Shown in pieces: positions 11,744 to 54,229 of a DNA stretch of 57,753 nucleotides. The stretch is from positions 1 to 57,753 of the IMG/VR virus record IMGVR_UViG_3300031521_000076, one strand, 5' to 3'. Within the stretch, counting starts at the first letter, position 1, and each line of letters opens with the position of its first letter. Below the pieces are notes generated by a model. It saw only the letters and a program-made list of their open reading frames with translations. It was not told where the DNA came from and did not search any database. This DNA is from a virus. The position numbers and the translations under genes were made by a program.

Positions 11744-12601
11744 TCAAATAATTTTTAACGATATCGTCATACCATTATAATTTATTCCCGAACTTAACAT
11801 CTCGTTTAAAGTAGACGGTTTTATATTATATTTTTTTGATAATTGGCTTTTACTCATTAACTCTTCATACAGATTTCCATTATTATTTATAATATAAAGT
11901 TTAGCAAATCTCAGAAAATGAGTCTGACTCATTTTCTGTTTCGTTTCTGTTGATACAAGTTTTCCTCGATGAGTTTCGCTATTTCTAATTCTCATCTTTT
12001 CTGCCCTTTCTGGGCCATAAATTTCTTCAATATTTTTATTTTTGGTTGTTCTAAACCAATTATTTTCGGATATGTGTCGTTTATGTTCCTCAGTCATAGG
12101 CTTTCTATTTTGAGCTCGTTGTGATAATTTTTGTTTATGCTCATCAGAAAATGTTTTATTTTTCCAGAATTTAGCGTTATTCGGATTATTTTGTTTAGCC
12201 ATTTTTAATGACTTTTTATGTTCTTCGGTTTTAGGTTTGCCTTTCATTATATCCGATATTCTTTTTTTTGATTCTTCAGTGCGTTTAAATCTATGCCCAG
12301 ATATTCCTTCACCACCATCTGTTAGGTTACATAAATCTAAATTATTATCTTTATGTTTTTTGATTAATTCTATTTCTTTGATAAATGCTTCTTGCTCATT
12401 AATTGCGTTTATTTTGTTATATAAAATTGTCCCGCCATTTTTCAAAATCGATAGAATTTTGTATTTAAACTTAGGATTCATGTTATAATTATGAAGCGCG
12501 GCGTGAAGATGCGCATACATTCTAGAGTTGCTGCCCTTACCTACATAAATAACCTCATTTGTTATAGAATTAATTAGTTCATAAGTATAAAATTGTTTCA
12601 T
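11744..12601 (-). CDS. GIY-YIG homing endonuclease with NUMOD3 repeats
   Basis: This is a 285-aa site-specific DNA endonuclease of the free-standing (segD-like) type. Residues 5-80 form a GIY-YIG nuclease domain: FYTYELI then VIYVGKGSNSRMYAH, with Arg27 as the likely catalytic Arg and a Glu in EQEAFIKEIELI as metal ligand. Residues about 100-220 hold several NUMOD3-type DNA-binding motifs (T-E-E-H-K-K and G-K-x-x-S patterns). The C-terminal 40 residues (SKSQLSKKYNIKPSTL) look like a helix-turn-helix of the NUMOD1 type. It runs against all its neighbours and has a late-type box 6 nt before its ATG. This is an intergenic selfish insertion, not an intron gene. Confidence 0.85.
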   Translation of the reverse strand: MKQFYTYELINSITNEVIYVGKGSNSRMYAHLHAALHNYNMNPKFKYKILSILKNGGTILYNKINAINEQEAFIKEIELIKKHKDNNLDLCNLTDGGEGISGHRFKRTEESKKRISDIMKGKPKTEEHKKSLKMAKQNNPNNAKFWKNKTFSDEHKQKLSQRAQNRKPMTEEHKRHISENNWFRTTKNKNIEEIYGPERAEKMRIRNSETHRGKLVSTETKQKMSQTHFLRFAKLYIINNNGNLYEELMSKSQLSKKYNIKPSTLNEMLSSGINYNGMTISLKII

Positions 12602-12678: not shown

Positions 12679-12686
12679 TATATTTG
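12679..12686 (+). promoter_or_regulatory. Bacteroidota-type promoter for PARP, TATATTTG
   Basis: A perfect TAnnTTTG box with a T-run at about 12657..12661 in the -33 position. The ATG at 12705 lies 18 nt downstream. A TTG at 12684 opens the same frame but is part of the box and is rejected as a start. Confidence 0.7.
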
Positions 12687-12704
12687 CATTCTAAAATAAT
12701 AGAC

Positions 12705-13979
12705 ATGAACAACAATAGAAATATTATAAAATTAGTATGTATTTCAAGTGATGGTAACAACAACAAATTCTACATCATGACTAAACTTAATTCAACAGAA
12801 TGGGAAGCTCAATGGGGTAGGATAAAAGGAGAACTTGCAATTGATGTTTCTGCTGGGCAAAAAAAGATTTACCCGATGAAAGATTGGGAAAAATTCTATG
12901 AGCATAAGACGGGTGATAAAAAAGGTTACAAGGACGTTACTCATTTATATGAAGAAATTTTAAAAGACCCTTCAGCCGGGAATAAAGGTGAAGACCCTAC
13001 AGCAATGATATTGAACGCTGCGGTTCGTAAGTTAATGATCGACTTACAAAGATTCGCAAGTATTTCAGTAAAAGAAAATTACTCAGTATCGGTTGAGAAT
13101 GTAACTCAACGAATGGTAGATGAAGCTCAATTAATTTTAGGAAGAGTATCATTAAAAATTGTCAAAGATGGAAACGTTAAAGACGTTAATAATGATCTTT
13201 TAGAACTTTATCGTATCATTCCACGAAAAATGAAAAAGGTATCTTATCATTTAGTTGATTCGTTATCTACAACAGAAAATATTGAATACGTTCAAAAGAT
13301 GATCAGAAATGAACAATCAACTTTAGACGTAATGGCTTCACAGGTTAAATTAAAAAATCAAAGTGAATCGTCAATGGTTACTGTTACTGAACAAAAATCA
13401 CTTCTTGAACAAATGGGTCTCACTGTTGAACACATAACTGGAAAAGAAGTTGAGTTCGTTAAAACATTAGCTGGAGAAAATGCTAAACGTATAAAAAATA
13501 TTTTCAAAGTAATCCATAAAGCATCAGCAGATAAATACGATAATCACTTCAAAGAACTTCGATCATCAAAGGAACAAATGCTTTTTCATGGTTCGCGTAA
13601 TCAGAATTGGTTTCATATACTTCAAAATAGTTTATTGATCAGGCCAGTAGGAGCAATACACACAGGCAGTATGTTCGGAGATGGATTATATTTTGCAAAT
13701 AAAATGCAAAAAGCAATAGGATATACGTCAACAAAAGGAGCTTATTGGACAAGTGGAAGTCAAGATACAGGTTTCATTGCTTTATTTAAGTGTAACGTCG
13801 GAAAACAAAAAGATATTCATCATCATACTTCAGATTGTAAATCATTGAGTCACACAAAAGTGCAAAAAGATGGTTATGATTCAGTATACGCTCATGGAGG
13901 ATTTGATTTAAGAAACGATGAATTTATACTTTATAAATCAGAAAAATGCACAATTGCATACATAATTGAAATATCTTAA
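12705..13979 (+). CDS. Poly(ADP-ribose) polymerase with WGR domain
   Basis: This is a 424-aa ADP-ribosyltransferase of the PARP1/2 type, which transfers ADP-ribose from NAD+ to protein (or nucleic acid). Residues about 8-85 form a WGR domain (WEAQWGRIKGE), which in PARP2/3 reads DNA or RNA ends. Residues about 95-230 match the helical regulatory domain in position and length. The catalytic domain starts near residue 285. The H-Y-E triad is intact: His295 in MLFHGSRNQNW, Tyr329 in GSMFGDGLYFANK, and Glu406 in LRNDEFILY. It has its own promoter and stands between the homing endonuclease and the 383-aa gene. PARPs occur in a few T4-like phages; the target (host polymerase, ribosome, defence proteins or phage DNA ends) is unknown. 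Confidence 0.88.
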   Translation: MNNNRNIIKLVCISSDGNNNKFYIMTKLNSTEWEAQWGRIKGELAIDVSAGQKKIYPMKDWEKFYEHKTGDKKGYKDVTHLYEEILKDPSAGNKGEDPTAMILNAAVRKLMIDLQRFASISVKENYSVSVENVTQRMVDEAQLILGRVSLKIVKDGNVKDVNNDLLELYRIIPRKMKKVSYHLVDSLSTTENIEYVQKMIRNEQSTLDVMASQVKLKNQSESSMVTVTEQKSLLEQMGLTVEHITGKEVEFVKTLAGENAKRIKNIFKVIHKASADKYDNHFKELRSSKEQMLFHGSRNQNWFHILQNSLLIRPVGAIHTGSMFGDGLYFANKMQKAIGYTSTKGAYWTSGSQDTGFIALFKCNVGKQKDIHHHTSDCKSLSHTKVQKDGYDSVYAHGGFDLRNDEFILYKSEKCTIAYIIEIS

Positions 13980-15246: not shown

Positions 15247-15269
15247 GTGTTATTGTGTTATTGTGTTAT
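15246..15269. repeat. Three tandem copies of TGTGTTAT
   Basis: The octamer TGTGTTAT is repeated three times without interruption. The last copy overlaps the stop codon of the leftward 1782-aa gene. Slippage here would move the gene's 3' end relative to the terminator. Confidence 0.8.
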
Positions 15270-18200
15270 CCGTTAGTAGGGTCATTTCCATAGAAACAAT
15301 ATGCGTGATCTCCCATATTACTCCATTCAGTATTATCCGTTACAAGTTTAACTGGGTCTCCAGTTTTAAATGTAATATCAATAATATTATCCGCCGTGTA
15401 TTCCTGTGTACCTATACATATCGTTCTGATAACTTTTCCATCATTACTTACCATTGTGCCAGATTGGCCATTAATTAAACTAGTCGATTCTTTAATTAAT
15501 CTAATAGGCATTCCATCTCTTTTTGAGTTAACTATAAGTGTAAGTGCAGAAGAATATGCATCACAAACTACGCACCAAGCGTTCAATTCACCGTAACCTG
15601 GATATAAGTCACTACTCCAAAATCCCGACGAAATTCCCATTTCTCTATCGCCATCTCCAAATCCACCAGTTAATCCTGCCCTACCGCCAGAACCCTTTAC
15701 ATTAAGTAAAGCTTCGTTAGTTGCTCCAGTATTTGGCGCATCCCACCAAGTTGTGCCAGTTTCTTTTATTTTGCCACCAGCAACAGTATCCCCACCTAAG
15801 TATGCAACTAATATTTCTAAATCAGATTTTGAAGGAACTTTCCATCCAGAAGGTGCAATATTTTTAATATCGGTTCCTGTATACCAATTATATAAAGCTC
15901 CATATTTAATAGGAGTTGGAACTGGAACAGGCGGAATAATAATTGTTTCGACATCATTTACTTGAAGAAGCCCCTCATATTTTTTAGTAATTGCATTTCC
16001 GAAACTATCATACGCCATACATTCAATATCATATATCCCAGGCGTATCAAAAATATAAGGAACAGATTCATTAAATACTTTAAAAAGTATTGTGCTTGAA
16101 TCATGATTAATCACTTCCCATATATTTTTTTGATTTAATAAATAAGTTGACGGGTCGTAGATTGCTCTAAGAATTACTAGCGTGCTTATGTCTACCACAA
16201 TAGGTTCAGTGTAATAGTAAAAATTTGAATGTATTAAATTATCTGAAGCGCTATACCATTGTTGATTAGGAATATCTTGATCAAATAAAATGTTCACCAT
16301 CGTAAATGTATTATCGAGATAGTATTCTTGACATGCAGAATCACCCATGTATATGTTAAATTCATTCACAACTTCTGTAGCTGAAATAGTTGTCATTTGC
16401 ATTTCAGAATATGTTGTAAATGCGTGTTTTGCTTCTAACGTGTAATACGTTGGATTTAAGAAAAAATCAGGTAAAGATTTATCAAAAGTATGGGTGTTTC
16501 CTGAAATATCAATGACCGTGTACGTACTGCCCCAATCATATCCATTTGTATGAGTAACAATAATTGCTACATTCTGACCAACTGAAAATATGTAACCTGA
16601 AATATCAGCTACAAAATTATCACTTACATTTCCGTAATTAAATACACCTCTTAAAGTTTGATTTATAGCATATACATCGGTTGAAATATCAATAACTTCA
16701 GAAACAGGAGTACTTAATGTAAGAGTTCTATCATTAGGTGAACCTGTAGCAGTAGAAACCTCATAAATGTTTTCACTAGTAAGTGAATATTTTCCTTTAT
16801 CAAATGATACTAAAGCAATAGTGTCCCCTGAATTAAATGATTGATAATCACAATCTACGATTACTTGAGAAGCTCCTATAGTTTTGATTCGTTCTGTTAA
16901 ATTATAAAATTTATTAATCGAATTTGGCCTTGGAACATCTTGAAAATATGTAATTGATGGAACTTTAATAAAAGGATTACCATCACTATCAATATTCAAT
17001 GTTAATCCCTCTAAAGGTATTGGTCTATCATAAATAGGATAAGGATGTTGTGAAACAAGTGTATTAACTTCATATAATCCAGTCGCATAATATGTGCCGT
17101 CAATCATATCTATCGAGGTAGAATCAAACCCTGCTGTACTTACAGTAACTTCATTGCCTATAATCACAATATAAATTAAGCCGTTCAGATATTTGATATC
17201 GAAATAATTAAGATTTATATCTAAAGGATTTATTGAATTGAATATGGATAAATTTGTGCTAAACGAATCTAATAGAAAACCTACTTCAATTCTGCCAATA
17301 GGAGTATCGATAGCAAATAATTTATCAGATAAATAAAGAGAATAATCAACTAAATTAACAATTTTAGAAGGAAATGAATCCCTACCGCCAGTCATAAATG
17401 TACTTGCACATGTCGTATTACAAGATTGGTCAATGAGAGTGTAAATAGTAGGAGCTTTAATAAATACTGGGTAAGTTTCTTTCGCAATATTATGAAATAA
17501 TGTGTTATATCCATCCCATGCATATAGTTCCACGTTATAATCTCCAATATGATTAACGTGCATAATATAAATACTGTTATCAACTGCCAATGAATTTACA
17601 TTGCCACCAGTCAATCCTGATGGATCTGCCCAATAATAGATACTTGGGTCAACTCTCCAAAGTTCCATTCTTGGAGATGTAACTATTATATTTGAAGTTA
17701 TTTTTTGCTCAATTAAACTTGTGTCATAATTCCAATTAATATAAGATACTGTATTATCCTGAGAACCTAACACATTTTTTGCATTCATTGCAATTTTTCC
17801 ATCTAGAATATCTAAATAATACTCTTTATCACTAAAATTGTACGTAGAGCCATCCACAGTTGTTGAGCTGAAATATTTCATGCTTAATAAAGGTACCCTA
17901 TAATTCAAATCTATCGCATACTGGAGTCTTCCAGAAGCATCTGGTGTAAATGTAACATAATCATCAAAATAATTTATAACGCCTGTGGAAGATTCTAATG
18001 CATAATTTCCAGAGCTTGTATCAGTCATTGGATAAATTGAATAAGCAATTGAATTTGTCCATTCATCTATAGAAGGGTCTCTTAAATAAGCTTTTTCTAA
18101 CATCACCGTTAAATTAGTGGAAGAATTATGAAACACAGATGATGAATCAAAAATGTCATAAAATCTTATATCATTATCTAAAATGAATAAAGGATTTGTT

Positions 18201-20614
18201 ACTAATGTATTTCCTACAACTGCGGCGTTTTTATTTTCAAGAGAAAGTTTCCAAGCGATATCTGAAATATTTACAAATGGATATTGGAATGTCGCGCCAA
18301 CTAATAAAAAACTACTTGGGTCTGCTAAATAAGAAGATGAATCTAATTCATAATATTTGTTAACACAAGGATCTTTAGGATTCCATGCAAACTCGGCCAT
18401 ATCTTTAAACCTATATGGCAAATCCATTACTCGAGTTCTTGATAATTCTAAAAATGTTAGTCTTATGCTAGCATCTCCCGTAATTAATTCTGATGTTTCA
18501 TCAGGACTATAAGGTGTCAAAGTTTGTTCTACACTATAATTGTACCCAATATTATCAGTTTCATAAATAAGATTTTGAACTCTTTCAAAATAAACTCCTT
18601 CTCCAGTTAAATCAGTTATGCGACAATTGATTCCAATGATATTTAGTTCAAGCCATTTTTTAAGCCCTAAGAGTTTAACAAACACTTCCTTTAAATTATA
18701 TGTATAACAATTTTCTGTTTCTGGAGTTCCCCATTCATCGATGGTTCCGGTTTCTCTTGTAATACAATAATGAAGAGATAACTGATTTAGTTTTTTAAGA
18801 GTTTTTCTTTGTTCTGCATTAAATTGAAGCATTGTTTGCGTTCTATCTTTTGCATCATAAGAAACTAAAATTGCTAATTTTGTATGATCTTTTACATTCA
18901 AAAACCATTCCTTTATAAAAATATCATCATATCCTAACCATTTAATAGCATTTATTAATCCTTTGTATGTGCCCACAAATGGCATGATTTTATCATGTTC
19001 AAGAATCATTTGTTTTGACTTGTAATTCAAGATTTCCCAATCTGGCAAATCTTCATTGATGTCAGTTTCTTTAAACACATCTTTCATGTCTTTTGGGTCA
19101 GGTAATCCAAAATTAGTTAAAAGAGTTCTGAATCGTTCATCTTCACCAATTGCTTCAGCATTAACAACGATTTCTCCAAGTATATAAAGTACACCGTCTA
19201 TTAAGTGATAAACTCTAATGGTGCGCTCAAATACTCCTTCATAATCAGATTTAAATCCAATGTTAAGCTGAATAGGAGTATCTAATACTATAGTTGATAG
19301 ATCAAATCCTACAACACTTGACCATGTGATTTCTACTTTATCTTCATCTACATCAAAGAATTGAATTTCATTATCATCCCCAATAAATTCAAAATAAATT
19401 AAATTGTTATCTACATCATAAGGTCTTATATATTGTTCAAGATCTTGTTCAAAAATATATATTTGCTCAGTTTCAACAAGCCCCTGTGAAACTGGTTTAA
19501 GAAAAACAGCTGCAGCAAAAGTAACTGAAGGATAAACAAAGCTTTTTGAAAAATCATTATATATTGAAACATCTACAAATGCATTGTTAATATCATTGTC
19601 ATAAAAGCAATATGCATGATTTCCCATGTGAGTCCACTCGGAAGCATCAGTGACTATTTTAATTTGTGAGCCATCTCTAAACAAGGTTTCGTTTAGCATA
19701 TCAGCTAGCCATACTTGTGTTCCTATTTTTACAGTCCTGTATGTCTTGCCATTATTACCAATATATGGGTCACATTCTTCTCCATCAGCTTTTAATAAAT
19801 CTGCAGCACTTGGAGTAGTTTTTCGTAATTTTATAGAGTATGCTCTAGTTTTTAATTCATTATCTTTATAAAGTGTAGTTCCTGAATTACTACAGTGTGC
19901 TGCTAATGCATTTGTGCTTGATGATATTGTAGTTGTCCAGAAATAACCATTGATATTTTTTTCGGAAAATGAACCATCAAGAGGACTTCTTGTTCCGCCT
20001 CCACGCATTGAAAAATTAGTGTCATTTATTGCTCCTATGTTAGCATTCCAGTAAGTATTTCCTGTTTCTTTTAATCTACCACCAACTGCTCCGTAATTTG
20101 TTGAAGTGGACACTCCTCCTAAATATAGACTCAACGTTTGAACATCTGTTTCTAAAGGAACTTGCCATCCAGTATTTGCTATTAAACTAGGGTCTGTTGC
20201 TGCAAAGAAATTATATAAAGTTCCGTATTTATTAGTTTCTACATAAGAAGAAATATCTAAAACTATTTCGCTTATACTGTTTGTGTAAACCATGTTAGTA
20301 GAAATATCGACGTAATTCACTAAAGGATATGCCGAGCCAAAAATAGGAATAGCTTTATAGATAATTGAAGCATCAAAAGGCGTAACAACTCCCTCATATG
20401 CATAATCATATGCAAGAGTTACATCGTCATTATCATATAAGACTCCACCATTAGTTATGCAAACACCTTCTACTAAAGTGCTTGAATTTGTTATTAAATA
20501 ACCTGCGGCATCTTTTCCAGTAGGAGAAGTAATAACGAGAGGTAATATAGGGCTTGGAGTCCAATTTATATTTGAGCCTTTTGCGTCAAATAATTTCCAA
20601 TTCTGAATATTCAT
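15266..20614 (-). CDS. Giant baseplate wedge-like protein with two FISUMP modules
   Basis: This 1782-aa virion protein sits where T4-like phages carry a large wedge protein (gp7-like), after gp25 and gp6. Residues 130-265 and 288-343 form a FISUMP module; a second is at 1571-1709 and 1725-1780, the very C-terminus. In both, the canonical second half (YGxLYN...GWxVP...LKETG...W) precedes the first half (DGKxxRTxxIGTQ...DGxxxKxVTD...AYCFY.ND), so the domain is circularly permuted. Residues about 490-730 hold a segment with GTYKGLINAIKWLGYDD and IKEWF, resembling the P2 gpI/T4 wedge 'GT..AI...LG' region. The rest is beta-rich with Ig-like stretches. The FISUMP parts probably bind host glycans; the gp7 equivalence is inferred from gene order. 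Confidence 0.6.
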   Translation of the reverse strand: MNIQNWKLFDAKGSNINWTPSPILPLVITSPTGKDAAGYLITNSSTLVEGVCITNGGVLYDNDDVTLAYDYAYEGVVTPFDASIIYKAIPIFGSAYPLVNYVDISTNMVYTNSISEIVLDISSYVETNKYGTLYNFFAATDPSLIANTGWQVPLETDVQTLSLYLGGVSTSTNYGAVGGRLKETGNTYWNANIGAINDTNFSMRGGGTRSPLDGSFSEKNINGYFWTTTISSSTNALAAHCSNSGTTLYKDNELKTRAYSIKLRKTTPSAADLLKADGEECDPYIGNNGKTYRTVKIGTQVWLADMLNETLFRDGSQIKIVTDASEWTHMGNHAYCFYDNDINNAFVDVSIYNDFSKSFVYPSVTFAAAVFLKPVSQGLVETEQIYIFEQDLEQYIRPYDVDNNLIYFEFIGDDNEIQFFDVDEDKVEITWSSVVGFDLSTIVLDTPIQLNIGFKSDYEGVFERTIRVYHLIDGVLYILGEIVVNAEAIGEDERFRTLLTNFGLPDPKDMKDVFKETDINEDLPDWEILNYKSKQMILEHDKIMPFVGTYKGLINAIKWLGYDDIFIKEWFLNVKDHTKLAILVSYDAKDRTQTMLQFNAEQRKTLKKLNQLSLHYCITRETGTIDEWGTPETENCYTYNLKEVFVKLLGLKKWLELNIIGINCRITDLTGEGVYFERVQNLIYETDNIGYNYSVEQTLTPYSPDETSELITGDASIRLTFLELSRTRVMDLPYRFKDMAEFAWNPKDPCVNKYYELDSSSYLADPSSFLLVGATFQYPFVNISDIAWKLSLENKNAAVVGNTLVTNPLFILDNDIRFYDIFDSSSVFHNSSTNLTVMLEKAYLRDPSIDEWTNSIAYSIYPMTDTSSGNYALESSTGVINYFDDYVTFTPDASGRLQYAIDLNYRVPLLSMKYFSSTTVDGSTYNFSDKEYYLDILDGKIAMNAKNVLGSQDNTVSYINWNYDTSLIEQKITSNIIVTSPRMELWRVDPSIYYWADPSGLTGGNVNSLAVDNSIYIMHVNHIGDYNVELYAWDGYNTLFHNIAKETYPVFIKAPTIYTLIDQSCNTTCASTFMTGGRDSFPSKIVNLVDYSLYLSDKLFAIDTPIGRIEVGFLLDSFSTNLSIFNSINPLDINLNYFDIKYLNGLIYIVIIGNEVTVSTAGFDSTSIDMIDGTYYATGLYEVNTLVSQHPYPIYDRPIPLEGLTLNIDSDGNPFIKVPSITYFQDVPRPNSINKFYNLTERIKTIGASQVIVDCDYQSFNSGDTIALVSFDKGKYSLTSENIYEVSTATGSPNDRTLTLSTPVSEVIDISTDVYAINQTLRGVFNYGNVSDNFVADISGYIFSVGQNVAIIVTHTNGYDWGSTYTVIDISGNTHTFDKSLPDFFLNPTYYTLEAKHAFTTYSEMQMTTISATEVVNEFNIYMGDSACQEYYLDNTFTMVNILFDQDIPNQQWYSASDNLIHSNFYYYTEPIVVDISTLVILRAIYDPSTYLLNQKNIWEVINHDSSTILFKVFNESVPYIFDTPGIYDIECMAYDSFGNAITKKYEGLLQVNDVETIIIPPVPVPTPIKYGALYNWYTGTDIKNIAPSGWKVPSKSDLEILVAYLGGDTVAGGKIKETGTTWWDAPNTGATNEALLNVKGSGGRAGLTGGFGDGDREMGISSGFWSSDLYPGYGELNAWCVVCDAYSSALTLIVNSKRDGMPIRLIKESTSLINGQSGTMVSNDGKVIRTICIGTQEYTADNIIDITFKTGDPVKLVTDNTEWSNMGDHAYCFYGNDPTNG

Positions 20615-23242: not shown

Positions 23243-26200
23243 TTACCACATGTCTATTCCACAGACTTTCGGAATATGCATTCTTACAGAACGTTTTATA
23301 ACTGGCGGCAAAGTATACTTATCATATCTGCCACCTATATGCTGAAAGTGTGCAGGTAAAATAAAGATATCACTTGAAATAAAGCCATTTTGATTATCAT
23401 ATTTTCCTGCTTTTGCTTCGTCTGTCACGAATTTTTCCATGAATTTAAGTTTCCATATTTTATCTACTCCATTAACATTATACCCATCATAATACATGTT
23501 ATTATAAGTAATATATGTGTGCGGGTTCTCTTGATAATAATTATGCGGTTTAGTAAAGTAAATATGCTCATAACTAAAGCCATCTTCTTTTGCTGCAGGA
23601 TATTTTAAGAAAATATATCCAACAATTAATTCACAATATCCGTCAATTAATTCTTCTTTTGATGGCGTATAATTCGGATCATTCATCGTAATAACTCCTG
23701 CCCACTGAAGAAATTCTTTATTGTTAAGAAGATTTTGAAGCTCTTGTGTCAAAATATCAGGTGTTAAGTGTTGTTCACTTTTCTGAATATCATAATTTTT
23801 CTTTAAGCGAGCTTCGAATAAACGAGGATATTCATCTTCTTCTGAACTTTCAAATGGAGCCCCCATTTTTTTCTTAAATTGATGTTCAGCTTCTGGATGT
23901 TTAGAACCAAAACCAGCCGGAACTTCTTTTGATTTTTTAAGCAAAGGAGATAATTCATGCTGAACCCGTTCTGAATGATCTTTGCTTCCAATATAATCTT
24001 TCGGATGGATAAATTCGACAGTGTAATATTCTAACTCCGTTACGCCAAAACCGTCGTCATCGATTGTATTCCAAATATCATTTCCAGTCTTATCATATGT
24101 ATCTGTACATATTTCGCCATTCTGTTTTACAACTTCAACAAGCCATTTTGGATCAGCAAATATTTTTATACTTAATCGATCTTCTAAACTTTTAATAATA
24201 ATCTTAAAAATTTCAATAGGAGGATATGTCCAGAATGATATAACTTTATGTTTAGTCCATATTCTACCTTCATAATATTCATTATCGTGTATGCCATGCC
24301 CATCATCGGAAGGTTGATTCCAACGAAGGTCGCTATGGGTGCCCCTCGCCTTTCCTATGAAGAATTCACCATAAGAATATTTAAAAGCATATGCATCTGA
24401 ATTATTGTATGATAAATTATCACCTGCAAGTTTAGCTGCTGGTGTCCATACTTCATCAGGAGACTCATTTAATCGAGGATAAAATGTTAAACTTTCATCA
24501 ATTTCATCATAATCTTCTTCAAATTCTGGAAGCTTATATTTGAATTGAGGATTTTTAGTCTTAAGTTTTTTAATCATACGTTCAGTTTCTCCTCCAACCC
24601 ATTCAAATACATCACTTCCTATAAAAGTATTACTACTTCCCATTCGTTCTAATAACAAGAAATGCTTTTGATCGTCATATACACCGCTTGCAGATGACGA
24701 CGTTCTTGCAAGTTCATTATATTTCTTTGTTTTAATTTCTTCAGCATCCATTAATGCATTGCCCATTGCGCCATGGTTAAATAATCTATTTTGAAATGCA
24801 ACATATAAGTTTCCATTTTCATCTGCTATAGCACGGACATCCTTGTCATAGTCATTTAGATTTTTTGGATTTTTGAAGATAGGAATTTCTTTTAGCATAT
24901 CATCTTTAACTATAGCGACTATGTCTTTTTTGAAGACAGGAATTTCATGTTCTTCTCTTTTAATTCCGAATTTTCTTTCAAGGTAAGCATCTTTTAAATC
25001 ACTTTCATGTAAAGTAGGATAAAAATCTTCTTCTTTATTTTCAAAGGGGTTGTCTCTTTTTTGTTTGGCACGTTCTTCTGCTTTAGGATGTTTAGAACCA
25101 AAACCAGCCGGAACTTCTTTTTGATTTTTTAATAAAGGTGAAATGACATGTTCTTTATTCTGAGCTTCTTCAGATTGATCTTCGCTTCCAGTGTAATTCT
25201 TCACATTCACAATAGATGACTTTGCTTTCCAAGACTCAGCCCAGGCACCATAAGTTAAGCCTTCTTCAAAATTTTCTAATCCGTCAATTTCTTTTCCAGT
25301 TTTTTTATTTTTAATTATTTCAACTTTCCAAGCAGGATCATTCCATATATTGATATTAGTAGCCTCAATTAAATCATCTATAACTTTTTTAAATTCCTTT
25401 TTGTTTGGCGGGTATGTCCAAAATGAAATAATTTTTAGTTCTGGCCAAATTCTTCCTGGATATCCAATTGAACGTCTAGAACCCGGTTCCATATCGAGGT
25501 GTTTTCCTTCATTTGGAGTAATTACAAATTTCCCTTTTACATAGCCAAATGCGTTATTGGCTGACATATACCAATCCATTCCTTTATATTTACCAGCCGA
25601 TATCTCATCTGGGGATTCGTTTAAATGTGGGTAATATGACTCAAAAGGAGCATTCATTTTTTCCTTAAATTTCTGTTCAGCTTCGGGATGTTTAGAGCCA
25701 AAACCAATTGGCACGGTTTTTTGTTTTTTTAATAAAGGTGATTTTAAGTGTTCCTGATATTCTTTATCTGAAACATCTTCAGATTTCATATCATTTTTAA
25801 GATATTCATCAATAGAAACAAATGTGCTATTATTTTCATTTTCGATATCAAAATTATAAAATTCTAAACGCCAGTTATTTCCAAATATTTTCTTCTTTAT
25901 TTTATTTTCAATCATGCGTATAATTATAACCATATCTGATTTTTCCGGATATTTCCAAAAAGTAATTACTTTAGGTGTAGTATAAAGCCTACCATGATAT
26001 TGTTGATAAAAATTAATTCTGGAATTATATTGTATTTTTGCGTCTCCGTGTGATTTTGCACATGCACCTACCTTCACATCAACAATTTTATTATCGTTTA
26101 CTGTAACAGAAAAGGGTATCGTAATTTTTTCGTTGTATTGATAAAATTTGCCATCTACATTTATAATATCCGGTGATTCATTTAATCTTGGATAGTACGA

Positions 26201-27991
26201 TTCAAATGGAGCTTGCATTTTTTCTTTAAATTTTTGTTCAACATTTATATGTTTTGAACCTACGCCAATAGGTACAATTTTATACTTTTTAAGAAGGGGA
26301 GATATGACATGATCCTGTTTAAGTTCATCTGTGGATCGTTCGTATTCACCGTTATAATCGTCAATATCGATAAATTTTTGCTCAGTTACAGATGGCGACC
26401 AGTTACCCCAATTTTTATCATTGCTACTATCTCCATTTTTCATTTTTTGAAAAATGTCATCGGCAGGAATTTCAATTTTCCAACCATCTCTTTTAAAATT
26501 AATATCTCTTTTTCCAGTTTTATTTAAACGTTTTTCAATATCACTTAACACTTTATTTAGCACTGCTTTATTTTCTGGAAAATGCCAAAATGTTATGATT
26601 TTTTGCGTGAAAAATAATCTACCAGCATAATTGAGTCTAGTGTCATGAGTTGACCCAATACCGCCAACGTGCATTATGTCACCCATATACCAGAATGGCA
26701 TTGCATCTTTATTGTACATAGCAGTTTTACCAGTTTCTGTGTCATAAATTGCATTAGGATTTTCAAATAATCGTGGATAATGTTTTTCTTCCACATTTTC
26801 AAATGGGGCTTGTATTTTAGTTTTAAAACGTTCCTCAGCTTTTGGATGTTTTGACCCAAAACCAGTAGGCACCTCTTTTTGTTTTTTTAATAACGGCGAA
26901 ATAACATGCTGTTTTTCAATTTCTTCTTTTGATCTTTCATCGCTTCCCATATAATCTTTAGGTGATATAAGATCAGTATGTGTTTCGTTGCTGTACCATG
27001 CTTGTCCATCTAAGATTTTTTCATCTTCATCATTGCGGACAATCTCTACTAAATAATCAGGGTCATTTAATATATCGATTCCAGGAGTTCCGGGACTAGT
27101 AGTATGTTTTTTTAAATCTCTTGCAAACTGTTGAAATTCAGTTTTTGAAGGATAGTCCCAAAATGAAAGTATTTTATGATTAGTCCATATTCTGCCAGCA
27201 AATTTATAATCTATGCGGGTTTGATGCCCCTGTTTAGTTTCAATTTCATAATGTTTTCCGCCAGGATCACTTATATAAAATTTATTTTTATAATATCCAA
27301 ATGACAAAGCTTCACTATTTCTAAATGATAATTCTTGTTCGCCATCTTCTGCACATTTCGCATTAGGCGGTAACGCACAGTTATCTGGTGATTCATTTAA
27401 TCTTGGATAGTATGACTCAAATGGTGCTTGCATTTTAGTTTTAAAACGTTCTTCGGACTTTGGATGTTTTGACCCAAAACCAGTCGTAACTTCTTTTTCA
27501 GATTTATTCATTGGAGATGTAGTATGTTCTTTATTAAAATCTTCTTCAGATTGATTTTTGCTAGCTAAATATGATTTTATAGGTATTAATTTATGAATAA
27601 CTTTAACTTCGTCTTTATAACCTTTTTGAATATTATTGTACTTATCGACTATAATTTCTATTTTCCATTCAGGATTATCCCATATATTAATATCGAAATA
27701 CTGTTCAATTTCTGATATAAGTTTTTTAAGCATATCTCTATCAGGATATTCCCAAAAAGAAATTACTTTCCCGGATAACCACAATCTTCCAGCATATTCA
27801 AATGTGTGCCTGTTGAAGGTTAACCCATTTTTTCGTATGTCTTTTAAGTTTTCTTCAAATTTCAAATCCTCATGAGACACGGGTTTATCAGAAATTAACA
27901 ATTTTCCATCATACACTCCAAAACATCTAGAGTCAGAGGAATTCCATCGAAGACCATTTATTCCATCAGGAGATTCAAAAAGTTTTTGCAT
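23243..27991 (-). CDS. Eight-module polyprotein with prohead-protease-like sites
   Basis: This 1582-aa protein divides into eight modules of similar size. Modules 1-5 and 7 are copies of one domain, marked by AGR(I/L)W..K(I/V)(I/L)SFW.YP, then W.(I/V)E(I/V), then ISPLLKK.KEVP.GFGSKHP.AE. Modules 6 and 8 are different domains. Each boundary is a linker ending Y-P-(R/H/T)-L-x-E followed by S, N or A (after residues 200, 410, 605, 792, 996, 1176 and 1393). The N-terminus MQKLFESPD carries the same L-x-E/S site. T4 prohead protease gp21 cuts after (L/I)-x-E and removes such short N-terminal peptides from packaged internal proteins. Predicted products are 194, 210, 195, 187, 204, 180, 217 and 189 aa. 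There is no signal peptide. It lies between the neck candidate and gp25 and has its own terminator. Domain function is unknown. Confidence 0.65.
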   Translation of the reverse strand: MQKLFESPDGINGLRWNSSDSRCFGVYDGKLLISDKPVSHEDLKFEENLKDIRKNGLTFNRHTFEYAGRLWLSGKVISFWEYPDRDMLKKLISEIEQYFDINIWDNPEWKIEIIVDKYNNIQKGYKDEVKVIHKLIPIKSYLASKNQSEEDFNKEHTTSPMNKSEKEVTTGFGSKHPKSEERFKTKMQAPFESYYPRLNESPDNCALPPNAKCAEDGEQELSFRNSEALSFGYYKNKFYISDPGGKHYEIETKQGHQTRIDYKFAGRIWTNHKILSFWDYPSKTEFQQFARDLKKHTTSPGTPGIDILNDPDYLVEIVRNDEDEKILDGQAWYSNETHTDLISPKDYMGSDERSKEEIEKQHVISPLLKKQKEVPTGFGSKHPKAEERFKTKIQAPFENVEEKHYPRLFENPNAIYDTETGKTAMYNKDAMPFWYMGDIMHVGGIGSTHDTRLNYAGRLFFTQKIITFWHFPENKAVLNKVLSDIEKRLNKTGKRDINFKRDGWKIEIPADDIFQKMKNGDSSNDKNWGNWSPSVTEQKFIDIDDYNGEYERSTDELKQDHVISPLLKKYKIVPIGVGSKHINVEQKFKEKMQAPFESYYPRLNESPDIINVDGKFYQYNEKITIPFSVTVNDNKIVDVKVGACAKSHGDAKIQYNSRINFYQQYHGRLYTTPKVITFWKYPEKSDMVIIIRMIENKIKKKIFGNNWRLEFYNFDIENENNSTFVSIDEYLKNDMKSEDVSDKEYQEHLKSPLLKKQKTVPIGFGSKHPEAEQKFKEKMNAPFESYYPHLNESPDEISAGKYKGMDWYMSANNAFGYVKGKFVITPNEGKHLDMEPGSRRSIGYPGRIWPELKIISFWTYPPNKKEFKKVIDDLIEATNINIWNDPAWKVEIIKNKKTGKEIDGLENFEEGLTYGAWAESWKAKSSIVNVKNYTGSEDQSEEAQNKEHVISPLLKNQKEVPAGFGSKHPKAEERAKQKRDNPFENKEEDFYPTLHESDLKDAYLERKFGIKREEHEIPVFKKDIVAIVKDDMLKEIPIFKNPKNLNDYDKDVRAIADENGNLYVAFQNRLFNHGAMGNALMDAEEIKTKKYNELARTSSSASGVYDDQKHFLLLERMGSSNTFIGSDVFEWVGGETERMIKKLKTKNPQFKYKLPEFEEDYDEIDESLTFYPRLNESPDEVWTPAAKLAGDNLSYNNSDAYAFKYSYGEFFIGKARGTHSDLRWNQPSDDGHGIHDNEYYEGRIWTKHKVISFWTYPPIEIFKIIIKSLEDRLSIKIFADPKWLVEVVKQNGEICTDTYDKTGNDIWNTIDDDGFGVTELEYYTVEFIHPKDYIGSKDHSERVQHELSPLLKKSKEVPAGFGSKHPEAEHQFKKKMGAPFESSEEDEYPRLFEARLKKNYDIQKSEQHLTPDILTQELQNLLNNKEFLQWAGVITMNDPNYTPSKEELIDGYCELIVGYIFLKYPAAKEDGFSYEHIYFTKPHNYYQENPHTYITYNNMYYDGYNVNGVDKIWKLKFMEKFVTDEAKAGKYDNQNGFISSDIFILPAHFQHIGGRYDKYTLPPVIKRSVRMHIPKVCGIDMW

Positions 27992-28745: not shown

Positions 28746-29318
28746 TTAGTTATTTTGCATTCTCATTCTTTGTAACTCTCGTTTGTTTTTAAAAGTAACT
28801 ACCTTTGAATTTAATTCTTCTGGGAGCCAGTCTTTTATCGGTCTGAAACGAAATTCTTCCCAACCACCACCCCTCAAATATGTTTTTTCGAGTATGTTAA
28901 TCTCAATGATGTAATTAGGCCAGTTCTTTATAGGCTTTGTCCGAAACTCAGCCTCTCCATTGTCTGTGAGGTCTTCTTCTATCTTATTGTTAGCTATAAG
29001 CTTTTTCATGTCAAGGACAACACATATACCGTCTTCGTTGAAACATGGATCAAAGTATGTTGGATCGACTGTTAGACATGTATTGTTCTCACTTTCGTAT
29101 CCTATTTCATACTTAGGTGTAGGCAAAGGAGGCATTACGCCTTTCTTTAAACAATACTTTCCTGAGTTACCTTCAAAGTCAGAGTAACACGCATCGAAGA
29201 ACTTACCCTCTGTCATCCAGTGGTAGGCTTTGTCAACTTCCATAAGATCGATTTTTGATCGATTGTTTCGATGAAGCTGATCAATACTCAAGCTCTCATA
29301 TACAAATCTTGCTTTCAT
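28746..29318 (-). CDS. Unknown protein with atypical composition, 190 aa
   Basis: A 190-aa soluble protein beginning MKARFVYESLSIDQLHR. It has five Cys in the first 100 residues and a C-terminal half with two similar segments (FRTKPIKNWPNYIIE and FRFRPIKDWLPEEL), suggesting an internal duplication of about 40 aa. Its codons use much more C and G than the flanking virion genes. Its start overlaps the amidoligase-like stop by 1 nt (TAATG) and it ends 4 bp before the next start, so it is built into the operon. Its size matches one polyprotein module but the sequence does not. Function unknown. Confidence 0.5.
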   Translation of the reverse strand: MKARFVYESLSIDQLHRNNRSKIDLMEVDKAYHWMTEGKFFDACYSDFEGNSGKYCLKKGVMPPLPTPKYEIGYESENNTCLTVDPTYFDPCFNEDGICVVLDMKKLIANNKIEEDLTDNGEAEFRTKPIKNWPNYIIEINILEKTYLRGGGWEEFRFRPIKDWLPEELNSKVVTFKNKRELQRMRMQNN

Positions 29319-52245: not shown

Positions 52246-52572
52246 ATGACAGACTTTCCTACATATTATGATTTGAAATATGCAAATACTTCAAAAATAT
52301 TTGAATCAGAACAAATAAAAGATCTCACTCCTGACCAAATTATAGAGGCAGAACATGTTTATAATGTATTAGTTGAAAAACTTCAAAAGGGTGAGCAGAT
52401 TGACGAGGGTCTATTTGGAGCACTAGTCGGGGGCACGGTTGGTGCACTTGTAGGTCCTGCCATAGGAAATGCTATCTGTAATGTACTGGGAATTAATAAA
52501 GATGGTCCACTTGGTAAATTACTTACGAGTCGCCTCGTATCAACAGCAATGGGAGTTGCATTAGGAAAATAA
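52246..52572 (+). CDS. Glycine-zipper protein, 108 aa
   Basis: A 108-aa protein with a polar helical N-terminal half and a C-terminal glycine zipper (GLFGALVGGTVGALVGPAIG) followed by a hydrophobic end (LLTSRLVSTAMGVALGK). The same C-terminal pattern recurs in small proteins of T4-like phages. It could insert in a membrane or pack inside the head. Residues 17-20 (KIFE before S) fit an I-x-E prohead protease site, which would mean that it is processed like an internal head protein; this is weak evidence. It has its own late-type box. Confidence 0.5.
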   Translation: MTDFPTYYDLKYANTSKIFESEQIKDLTPDQIIEAEHVYNVLVEKLQKGEQIDEGLFGALVGGTVGALVGPAIGNAICNVLGINKDGPLGKLLTSRLVSTAMGVALGK

Positions 52573-52589: not shown

Positions 52590-53246
52590 ATGACTATAAT
52601 TGGCTTTGATTTTTCAATCAATAAACCCGCGGCTGCGATTTACACCACAGATTTCCCATTTTTACCTACTTGGCAATTTTTTGGATGGCCCTATGGTATG
52701 AAACTAAAAATGTTTGATTTATATAACAACTCTGGTGTAACTTTATTTAATCGAGAAGATGATAAGGAAAAAGGAACTGATGTTTCTGATCTTATGCGAT
52801 ATGGAGTTAAAAATGCACAATATTTATCGGAATTGATTCAGGAGTCACTGAAAATTTACCTTAATAGTAATCCTTATATAGTGTTTGAAGGTCTCTCTTA
52901 TGCCTCCTCAGGAGCTCACGTGATTCAATTAGGAGCCTATAAGTATATGTTAATGCATTACTTATCAAAATTTGTTTCTTTAGATAGAATGTTTACATAT
53001 TCTCCTATAACGATAAAGAGCGTGGCCGGATGTGCAAAAAAGGGAATGGGAAAACCAGAGATGATTCAATCATTTATTGTTAATGGGCCAGAATGTGAAT
53101 TCAGAGAATCACTCATAAATTCGCCATCTGAATTTCAAAGTGGAAAAAAGAATAATTGGATAATGGGGATAGATGATTTTGTAGACGCTTTTTGGGTCAT
53201 AGAAACATTTATAGCTAAAGAAAATAATCAATTAAATATACTATGA
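52590..53246 (+). CDS. RuvC-like Holliday junction resolvase
   Basis: A 218-aa RNase H-fold nuclease. The first strand carries the catalytic Asp7 in IIGFDFSINKP. A second acidic residue, Glu100, lies in YIVFEGLSYASSGAH. The PITIKSVAGCAKKGMGKPEM segment matches the RuvC 'P..VK....G.G.A.K..M' region. The final acidic cluster is Asp195, Asp196 and Asp199 in MGIDDFVDAFWVIE. These are the four-acid set of RuvC. It resolves branched DNA during recombination and before packaging, the job of gp49 in T4. The TGA overlaps the start of the HNH gene (ATGA). Confidence 0.8.
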   Translation: MTIIGFDFSINKPAAAIYTTDFPFLPTWQFFGWPYGMKLKMFDLYNNSGVTLFNREDDKEKGTDVSDLMRYGVKNAQYLSELIQESLKIYLNSNPYIVFEGLSYASSGAHVIQLGAYKYMLMHYLSKFVSLDRMFTYSPITIKSVAGCAKKGMGKPEMIQSFIVNGPECEFRESLINSPSEFQSGKKNNWIMGIDDFVDAFWVIETFIAKENNQLNIL

Positions 53247-54229
53247 ATCATCTAAAAATCTATAATACTATTATTCAAAAAGCTAAATCTGAAAATAGAA
53301 TTAAATTACATAAAAATCATGATGATTTTATATATTATGAAAATCATCATATACTTCCAAAATGTATAGGAGGAGATAATAATAAAGAAAATTTAGTTTT
53401 ATTAGTTCCTAAAGAACATTTCATGTGCCATAAATTATTGACGTATATTTATTATGAAAATATTAAATTAGTTTATGCCTTTCATTGGATGTGTTATACA
53501 AAAAATTCAAATCATGATCGTACATATACAGTCACTGCTCGAGATTATGCGTATTTAAGAGAATTATATGTTTTAAGAGCAGTTTCAGATGAAACTAAAA
53601 TAAAAATAGGAAATGCTCACCGTGGAAAGCATTTAACTGAAGATCACAAGAAAAAATTAAGTCGAATTAAAAGTGTTGAAGAAATACAAAAAATTATACA
53701 AACACGAAAAGACAGAGAGTGTGGAAAAGGAGAAAAAAATTCGATGTATGGGAAGGGTTATTTAATATCCGGAGATAAAAACGGAAGATATCATAAAAAG
53801 CATTCTGAAGAATCTATATTTAAAATGCAGATAAGCGCCAAAAATAGAGATAAAATTAATTATCAAACTGAAGAATATAGAAATAAACAAAGTAAAAATT
53901 CATCAGGGAAGAACAATGGTATGTTTAATAAGTGTGCATATGATATATGGGTTGAAAAATATGGAAAAATAGAAGCTGATAAAAGAAATAATATAAAAAA
54001 ACAAAAATTACGTAAAGCTAAAAAACCGGCCAAAACTGAACAAGCAAAAGAAAATATGCGAATAGGCGCTTTAAACAGGCAAAAGTATGAATGTGAACAT
54101 TGTGGAAAGACTTTTGATGCAGGAAATCTTAAACAACACCAAATGCGAATAAAAACCTTACAAATCAAAGAGAAACTTGAACAGTGCCCGCGAGACGGAA
54201 TCGAAATGAATGCATATTTAGACAAATAA
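53243..54229 (+). CDS. HNH homing endonuclease with NUMOD3 repeats and zinc finger
   Basis: A 328-aa mobile endonuclease. Residues 30-65 hold the HNH core: YYENHHILPKCIGG (His35/His36), Asn50 in NKENLVLL, and KEHFMCH (His59, His63). Residues about 110-225 carry NUMOD3-type DNA-binding repeats (GNAHRGKHLTEDHKKKLS and similar). Near the C-terminus there is a C2H2-like finger (CEHCGKTFDAGNLKQHQM). It overlaps the resolvase gene by 4 bp and is followed by a gene-free 165-bp region. It is free-standing; no sign of a group I intron or intein was seen in the resolvase gene. Confidence 0.85.
   Translation: MNHLKIYNTIIQKAKSENRIKLHKNHDDFIYYENHHILPKCIGGDNNKENLVLLVPKEHFMCHKLLTYIYYENIKLVYAFHWMCYTKNSNHDRTYTVTARDYAYLRELYVLRAVSDETKIKIGNAHRGKHLTEDHKKKLSRIKSVEEIQKIIQTRKDRECGKGEKNSMYGKGYLISGDKNGRYHKKHSEESIFKMQISAKNRDKINYQTEEYRNKQSKNSSGKNNGMFNKCAYDIWVEKYGKIEADKRNNIKKQKLRKAKKPAKTEQAKENMRIGALNRQKYECEHCGKTFDAGNLKQHQMRIKTLQIKEKLEQCPRDGIEMNAYLDK

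Follow-up and report, generated by a model that had tools for sequence, protein, structure and literature searches.

A putative capsid-cargo polyprotein of a T4-type jumbo phage, with predicted prohead protease sites at its module boundaries

Background

The prohead protease gp21 of phage T4 cleaves after L/I-x-E, and the propeptides that target T4 proteins to the capsid are 10–19 amino acids (aa) in length (PMC9026906). The T4 capsid targeting sequence also packages foreign proteins (PMC9026906, PMC3012670). The substrates of phiKZ gp175 and SPN3US gp245 (ejection or inner-body proteins) are paralogous head proteins that lose N-terminal propeptides by an S77-like maturation after x-x-E. No multi-product precursor is described in the phiKZ and SPN3US maturation literature that was searched, a search that mostly did not extend to subscription papers. 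For the polyvalent proteins of phages and conjugative elements, processing by embedded zincin-type peptidases has been proposed (Iyer et al. 2017, PMC5512222).

The gene described here lies in an IMG/VR virus record of 57,753 bp (hereafter the window: the whole stretch of DNA analysed, a fragment without head genes). Its product resembles the T4 internal proteins (IPI–III and Alt, with gp21 as the S77 protease) in having L/I-x-E after a short N-terminal peptide, in that such a peptide is common to unrelated cargo, and in the presence of S77 and Gp23 proteins in relatives. In contrast to T4, which has one cargo per gene, up to eight modules are fused here, each preceded by a site, and, to the extent covered by the searches, the module folds bear no relation to T4 proteins. 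The phiKZ and SPN3US substrates are similar in being paralogous and in the type of maturation, but the phiKZ motif is S/A/G-x-E, whereas the motif here is [LIM]xE. Polyvalent proteins share with this locus the multi-domain chains, the variable effector domains, the presumed injection and the analogy to RNA-virus polyproteins; they differ in that no embedded peptidase was found here, a predicted site for a protease acting in trans stands at every boundary, and the modules are tandem paralogues. Pfam detects no polyvalent-family effector domain in the window chain, and only relatives carry fusions to lysozyme, 2H phosphoesterase or nucleotidyltransferase. The likeness to RNA-virus polyproteins (one precursor, many products and protease sites between them) is an analogy only, as the cut here would be made by a capsid-maturation protease in the prohead of a DNA phage.

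Results and discussion

The precursor gene and its predicted sites

The polyprotein gene and its parts are listed in Table 1, where an arrow marks a predicted cut. The coordinates given for the gene in the preliminary description are correct, and the strand, which was missing there, is the minus strand. A stop codon directly precedes the ATG (the ORF is open from stop to stop), so a longer N-terminus is impossible in that frame. A second record, of 66,208 bp (the 66-kb twin), contains the gene with 100% identity. The polyprotein has no Pfam match, and neither Pfam nor PHROGs detects a peptidase domain in it.

Table 1. Predicted parts of the polyprotein and candidate further substrates in the window
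Feature	Coordinates	Strand	Basis
Whole precursor ORF, 1582 aa, 184.7 kDa	23243..27991	-	Translation
N-terminal peptide MQKLFE, predicted cut LFE↓S (residue 6)	27974..27991	-	Equivalent N-terminal signals in 29/32 relatives
Module 1, type A, residues 7-200, ends YYPRLNE↓S	27392..27973	-	Homology
Module 2, type A, residues 201-410, ends YPRLFE↓N	26762..27391	-	Homology
Module 3, type A, residues 411-605, ends YYPRLNE↓S	26177..26761	-	Homology
Module 4, type A, residues 606-792, ends YYPHLNE↓S	25616..26176	-	Homology
Module 5, type A, residues 793-996, ends YPTLHE↓S	25004..25615	-	Homology and structure prediction
Module 6, type B, residues 997-1176, ends YPRLNE↓S	24464..25003	-	Stand-alone genes in relatives
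Module 7, type A, residues 1177-1393, ends YPRLFE↓A	23813..24463	-	Homology
Module 8, residues 1394-1582	23246..23812	-	C-terminal half weakly like module 6
Candidate second cargo, 190 aa, N-terminus MKARFVYE↓S	28746..29318	-	Next gene but one upstream of the polyprotein
Candidate substrate, 108 aa, N-terminal ...KIFE↓S	52246..52572	+	...RIFE↓A in the colinear relative G003

The motif LxE↓[SNA] occurs nine times in the 1582-aa chain, compared with 1.3 times in shuffled sequences (maximum of 6 in 2000 shuffles). Eight of these motifs coincide exactly with the N-terminal site and the seven module boundaries, so that every site named in the preliminary description was recovered; the ninth (LIE↓A at residue 876) is off-boundary, inside a confidently predicted helix of module 5. 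Plain [LI]xE is not enriched (17 observed, approximately 19 expected), and this count was therefore rejected as evidence. An additional IDE↓S site is found immediately ahead of the boundary between modules 6 and 7. The proposed uniformity of the products holds, with predicted sizes of 180–217 aa (21.0–25.1 kDa).

The genomic neighbourhood of the gene consists of baseplate (gp25-like and gp6-like) and tail genes with no head genes, and the position is by itself no pointer to the head. Elsewhere in the window are a gene for a phage protein with a PARP catalytic domain (12684-13979; PF00644, E = 1e-22) and two homing-endonuclease genes amid virion genes (11744-12601 and 53243-54229). A 1782-aa virion protein, encoded at 15266-20614, contains Fib_succ_major domains (PF09603); these tail domains hint at a Bacteroidota-type host, which is a guess.

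Module families

The type A modules (1–5 and 7) are homologous, with pairwise identities of 31–47% and BLAST E values of 6e-20 to 2e-47, and the pattern GR..K...FW..P is invariant in this module type. The six copies of one domain that had been described thus stand, but the two other modules, described as unrelated, are weakly alike (26% identity between modules 6 and 8 over 81 aa, E = 1e-4). Module 6 belongs to a family separate from type A that is encoded elsewhere by stand-alone genes, and no relative of module 8 was found outside the window phage. A transglutaminase or papain-like identity for module 8, considered on the basis of a C-H-D pattern, was rejected, as no significant match to the papain-like domains of L044, L040 or L051 was obtained.

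Structure prediction, which had been proposed for the modules, gave a confident core for module 5 (pLDDT >90) preceded by a linker that is predicted to be disordered (pLDDT <50). It did not lead to a known fold: there was no match with E <0.001 for modules 5 and 6 in the PDB, nor for module 5 in BFVD. Similarly, the module family has no Pfam match above the curated cut-off and no credible or consistent PHROGs match, and no module was matched in a tblastn search of named phages or in a single search of GTDB genomes.

Chains related to the window polyprotein have a type A module fused to lysozyme, 2H phosphoesterase (a weak Acb1 match) or nucleotidyltransferase domains. These fusions would fit a role in early host take-over or counter-defence, and prove nothing for the window chain. 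The chain at L013:6741-9119 has a 2H phosphoesterase domain weakly similar to the anti-CBASS protein Acb1, then DNITE↓SPD and then a type A module.

Conservation of the boundary site in relatives

A profile of the six type A modules identified 70 loci in viral contigs (IMG/VR), a set that was enlarged by a second scan. In these relatives, a module stands alone, is paired, forms part of a longer array or is combined with other domains in a large chain. When 67 non-redundant type A modules (<60% identity) were aligned at the module start, [LIM]xE was directly ahead of the module in 62, compared with a mean of 0.8% and a maximum of 6.3% at 123 control offsets. Glutamate is at P1 in 63 of the 67 and absent in four. 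The rule applies to 29/32 modules at the start of a protein and to 33/35 at internal boundaries, and loci obtained later keep it in 8/9 non-redundant copies, with VFE in the ninth. The sequence farther upstream is variable, while conservation spans the site itself (LxE, then [SNT]PD).

All 13 type B modules listed in fused chains follow [LIV]xE↓[SGDN], and these modules have no N-terminal sequence in common with type A. The YPxL linker behaves differently according to its position: the E is missing in 13/16 cases in which the linker ends the protein, and kept in 26/27 cases in which a module follows it. One of the terminal cases is L006, whose chain stops at a TAG in the E position. This in-frame TAG (L006:8670-8672) stands exactly at the P1 Glu of a boundary (YYPRLN[TAG]NPN) and splits the array; it may reflect recoding, a nonsense mutation or an error. 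In L021–L025 and L053 (e.g. L021:3902-6600), module arrays have an open frame only when TGA is translated as Trp; since TGA sits at conserved Trp positions, these phages are probably stop-recoded. One chain of this clade has five modules, each after [LI]xE.

N-terminal signals and fusion joints

Separate, adjacent small genes encode the two module types (A and B) in L036 and L016. The products begin with MIKLKxL(I/L)xE or MKLKKLLRE↓NPD, as do those of unrelated neighbours that match poly(A) polymerase/HD, M78 peptidase, kinase-like and nucleotidase families; L011 also has the former signal on unrelated proteins. Signals of relatives' small module genes that are common to unrelated genes are exemplified by MIKLKxLIKE↓ and MRAKLVKE↓. 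The clade to which the window belongs has a signal of its own, M[RK]AK[LF][VI]xE, which is found in several unrelated genes of G003 (a 323-kb relative, see below) and in the module genes of L019, L027 and L070, and which the N-terminus of the candidate second cargo in Table 1 resembles. These peptides are roughly 8–18 aa long in relatives. At only 6 aa, MQKLFE of the window is shorter, and falls below the range of the T4 targeting propeptides as well. Enrichment of N-terminal [LI]xE across whole genomes is clear in G008 only, modest in G003 and G011, and not seen in G002, G004 or G010; because it is patchy among genomes, we did not use it as a main argument.

Some fused chains retain the N-terminal signal of their own genome internally (IKLKNLINE↓S in L036 and MKLKNLIKE in L007). 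In a 304-aa G003 protein (L131, G003:45663-46577), the N-terminal signal recurs within the chain as MRAKLVKESLNE (NNNNMRAKLVKESLNE), which marks a gene-fusion joint. In L008/L009 the orthologous polyprotein is divided between two genes where one module meets the next, and the downstream part begins with MHIIKEDLINE↓SPDG.

Prohead protease and capsid protein

The preliminary description called for a gp21-like protease in the genome. No peptidase S77 gene is found in the window (57.8 kb) or in the 66.2-kb twin, probably because these two fragments stop short of the head region. The protease is, however, present in the colinear relative G003, which is 323 kb in length, shares more than 20 orthologues with the window (about 30–66% identical) and has three type A modules at its polyprotein locus. 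The G003 S77 domain is of the T4 gp21 type (209366-211756, E = 3.6e-16). The gene product of 796 aa combines the protease with a coiled, scaffold-like C-terminal part of approximately 600 aa, and that of G004 is similar (811 aa). The gene adjoins that for a Gp23-type capsid protein containing HALNE↓AAMGG, with LNE↓A at the expected site.

In total, S77 (PF03420) was detected in 12 of 25 module-carrying records, G003 among them, and GELxHP and ISSR motifs are present in five of the relatives' S77 proteins. Each of the six module-carrying records with Gp23 (PF07068) also has S77 (6/6), and in seven of seven capsid proteins of relatives [LIM]xE is found where it is expected. Neither S77 nor Gp23 was detected in four large module-carrying records (72–235 kb), probably because these are incomplete or too diverged.

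Proposed mechanism and alternatives

We propose, with a probability of roughly 0.73, that the ORF encodes a precursor of virion-packaged proteins in a T4-type jumbo phage, and that this precursor is cut at its module boundaries by the prohead protease. The precursor would enter the prohead core, where the S77 protease of the phage would cut after each boundary E. The sites would be of the T4 gp21 kind (L/I/M-x-E↓S/N/T/D/A/G), situated in a flexible linker ahead of each module. About eight proteins of 21–25 kDa would be released in equal numbers, stay with the DNA and enter the next host on ejection. The most likely origin of the arrays is that neighbouring cargo genes, each with a short N-terminal signal for targeting and cleavage, were duplicated and fused in frame. 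Because six residues are few for an N-terminal signal of the T4 type, the targeting signal may lie elsewhere, the conserved basic tail (SPLLKK..VP.GFGSKHP.AE) or the linker being alternative elements. We infer cleavage, packaging, injection and a host-directed function from sequence, and with them the loading of "many effectors at equal dose" put forward in the preliminary description. That interpretation is supported, in that each of its predictions that is testable in silico came out favourably.

Partial cutting is the most credible alternative, although we consider it unlikely: the protein would be packaged and cut at its N-terminus or at some boundaries only, and the remaining LxE motifs would be relics of gene fusion. 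Old N-terminal signals are indeed still recognizable at fusion joints, and in SPN3US cleavage has been shown for not all predicted motifs (PMC10052503), but the intact sites at 33/35 internal boundaries across diverged chains, and the loss of E from terminal sites, argue against relics. Slightly less credible is an intact multi-domain virion protein, perhaps a baseplate or tail accessory, in which LxE belongs to the module fold or to a conserved linker. The location of the gene between baseplate and tail genes is consistent with such a protein, as are the conservation that continues across the site and the terminal YPRL that persists without E, which implies some role of the linker itself. Several observations suggest, on the other hand, that the site is not merely part of the fold: the same LxE stands ahead of modules from two non-homologous families with dissimilar N-termini; modules also occur as single genes, and LxE closes short N-terminal peptides that these share with unrelated genes; such signals persist inside fused chains; the L008/L009 chain is divided at a module boundary; E is lost at terminal YPxL and kept at internal YPxL; and the linker has a low pLDDT, whereas the off-boundary motif is in a confident helix.

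The least probable of the readings considered is an effector resembling polyvalent proteins, injected whole, or cleaved not by the prohead protease but by another peptidase (a host protease or an embedded domain). The fusion of modules to lysozyme, 2H phosphoesterase and nucleotidyltransferase domains in related chains recalls such proteins (PMC5512222), but no peptidase domain was detected in the window protein, and its sites agree both with the S77-type motif and with those in the capsid proteins of related phages.

Conclusions

The precursor reading, if extended to the relatives, would make these chains a widespread and undescribed class of DNA-phage capsid-cargo polyproteins, in which fused effector modules carry their own protease sites and are released equally in the capsid; on balance, we lean towards this view. 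If it is true, the capsid-maturation protease would also serve as a polyprotein-processing enzyme, and many cargo proteins would be loaded from one gene in a fixed ratio, with one targeting event per chain. The function of most genes of uncultivated jumbo phages is not known. For these phages, [LIM]xE directly before a domain would provide a rule for spotting virion-delivered proteins.
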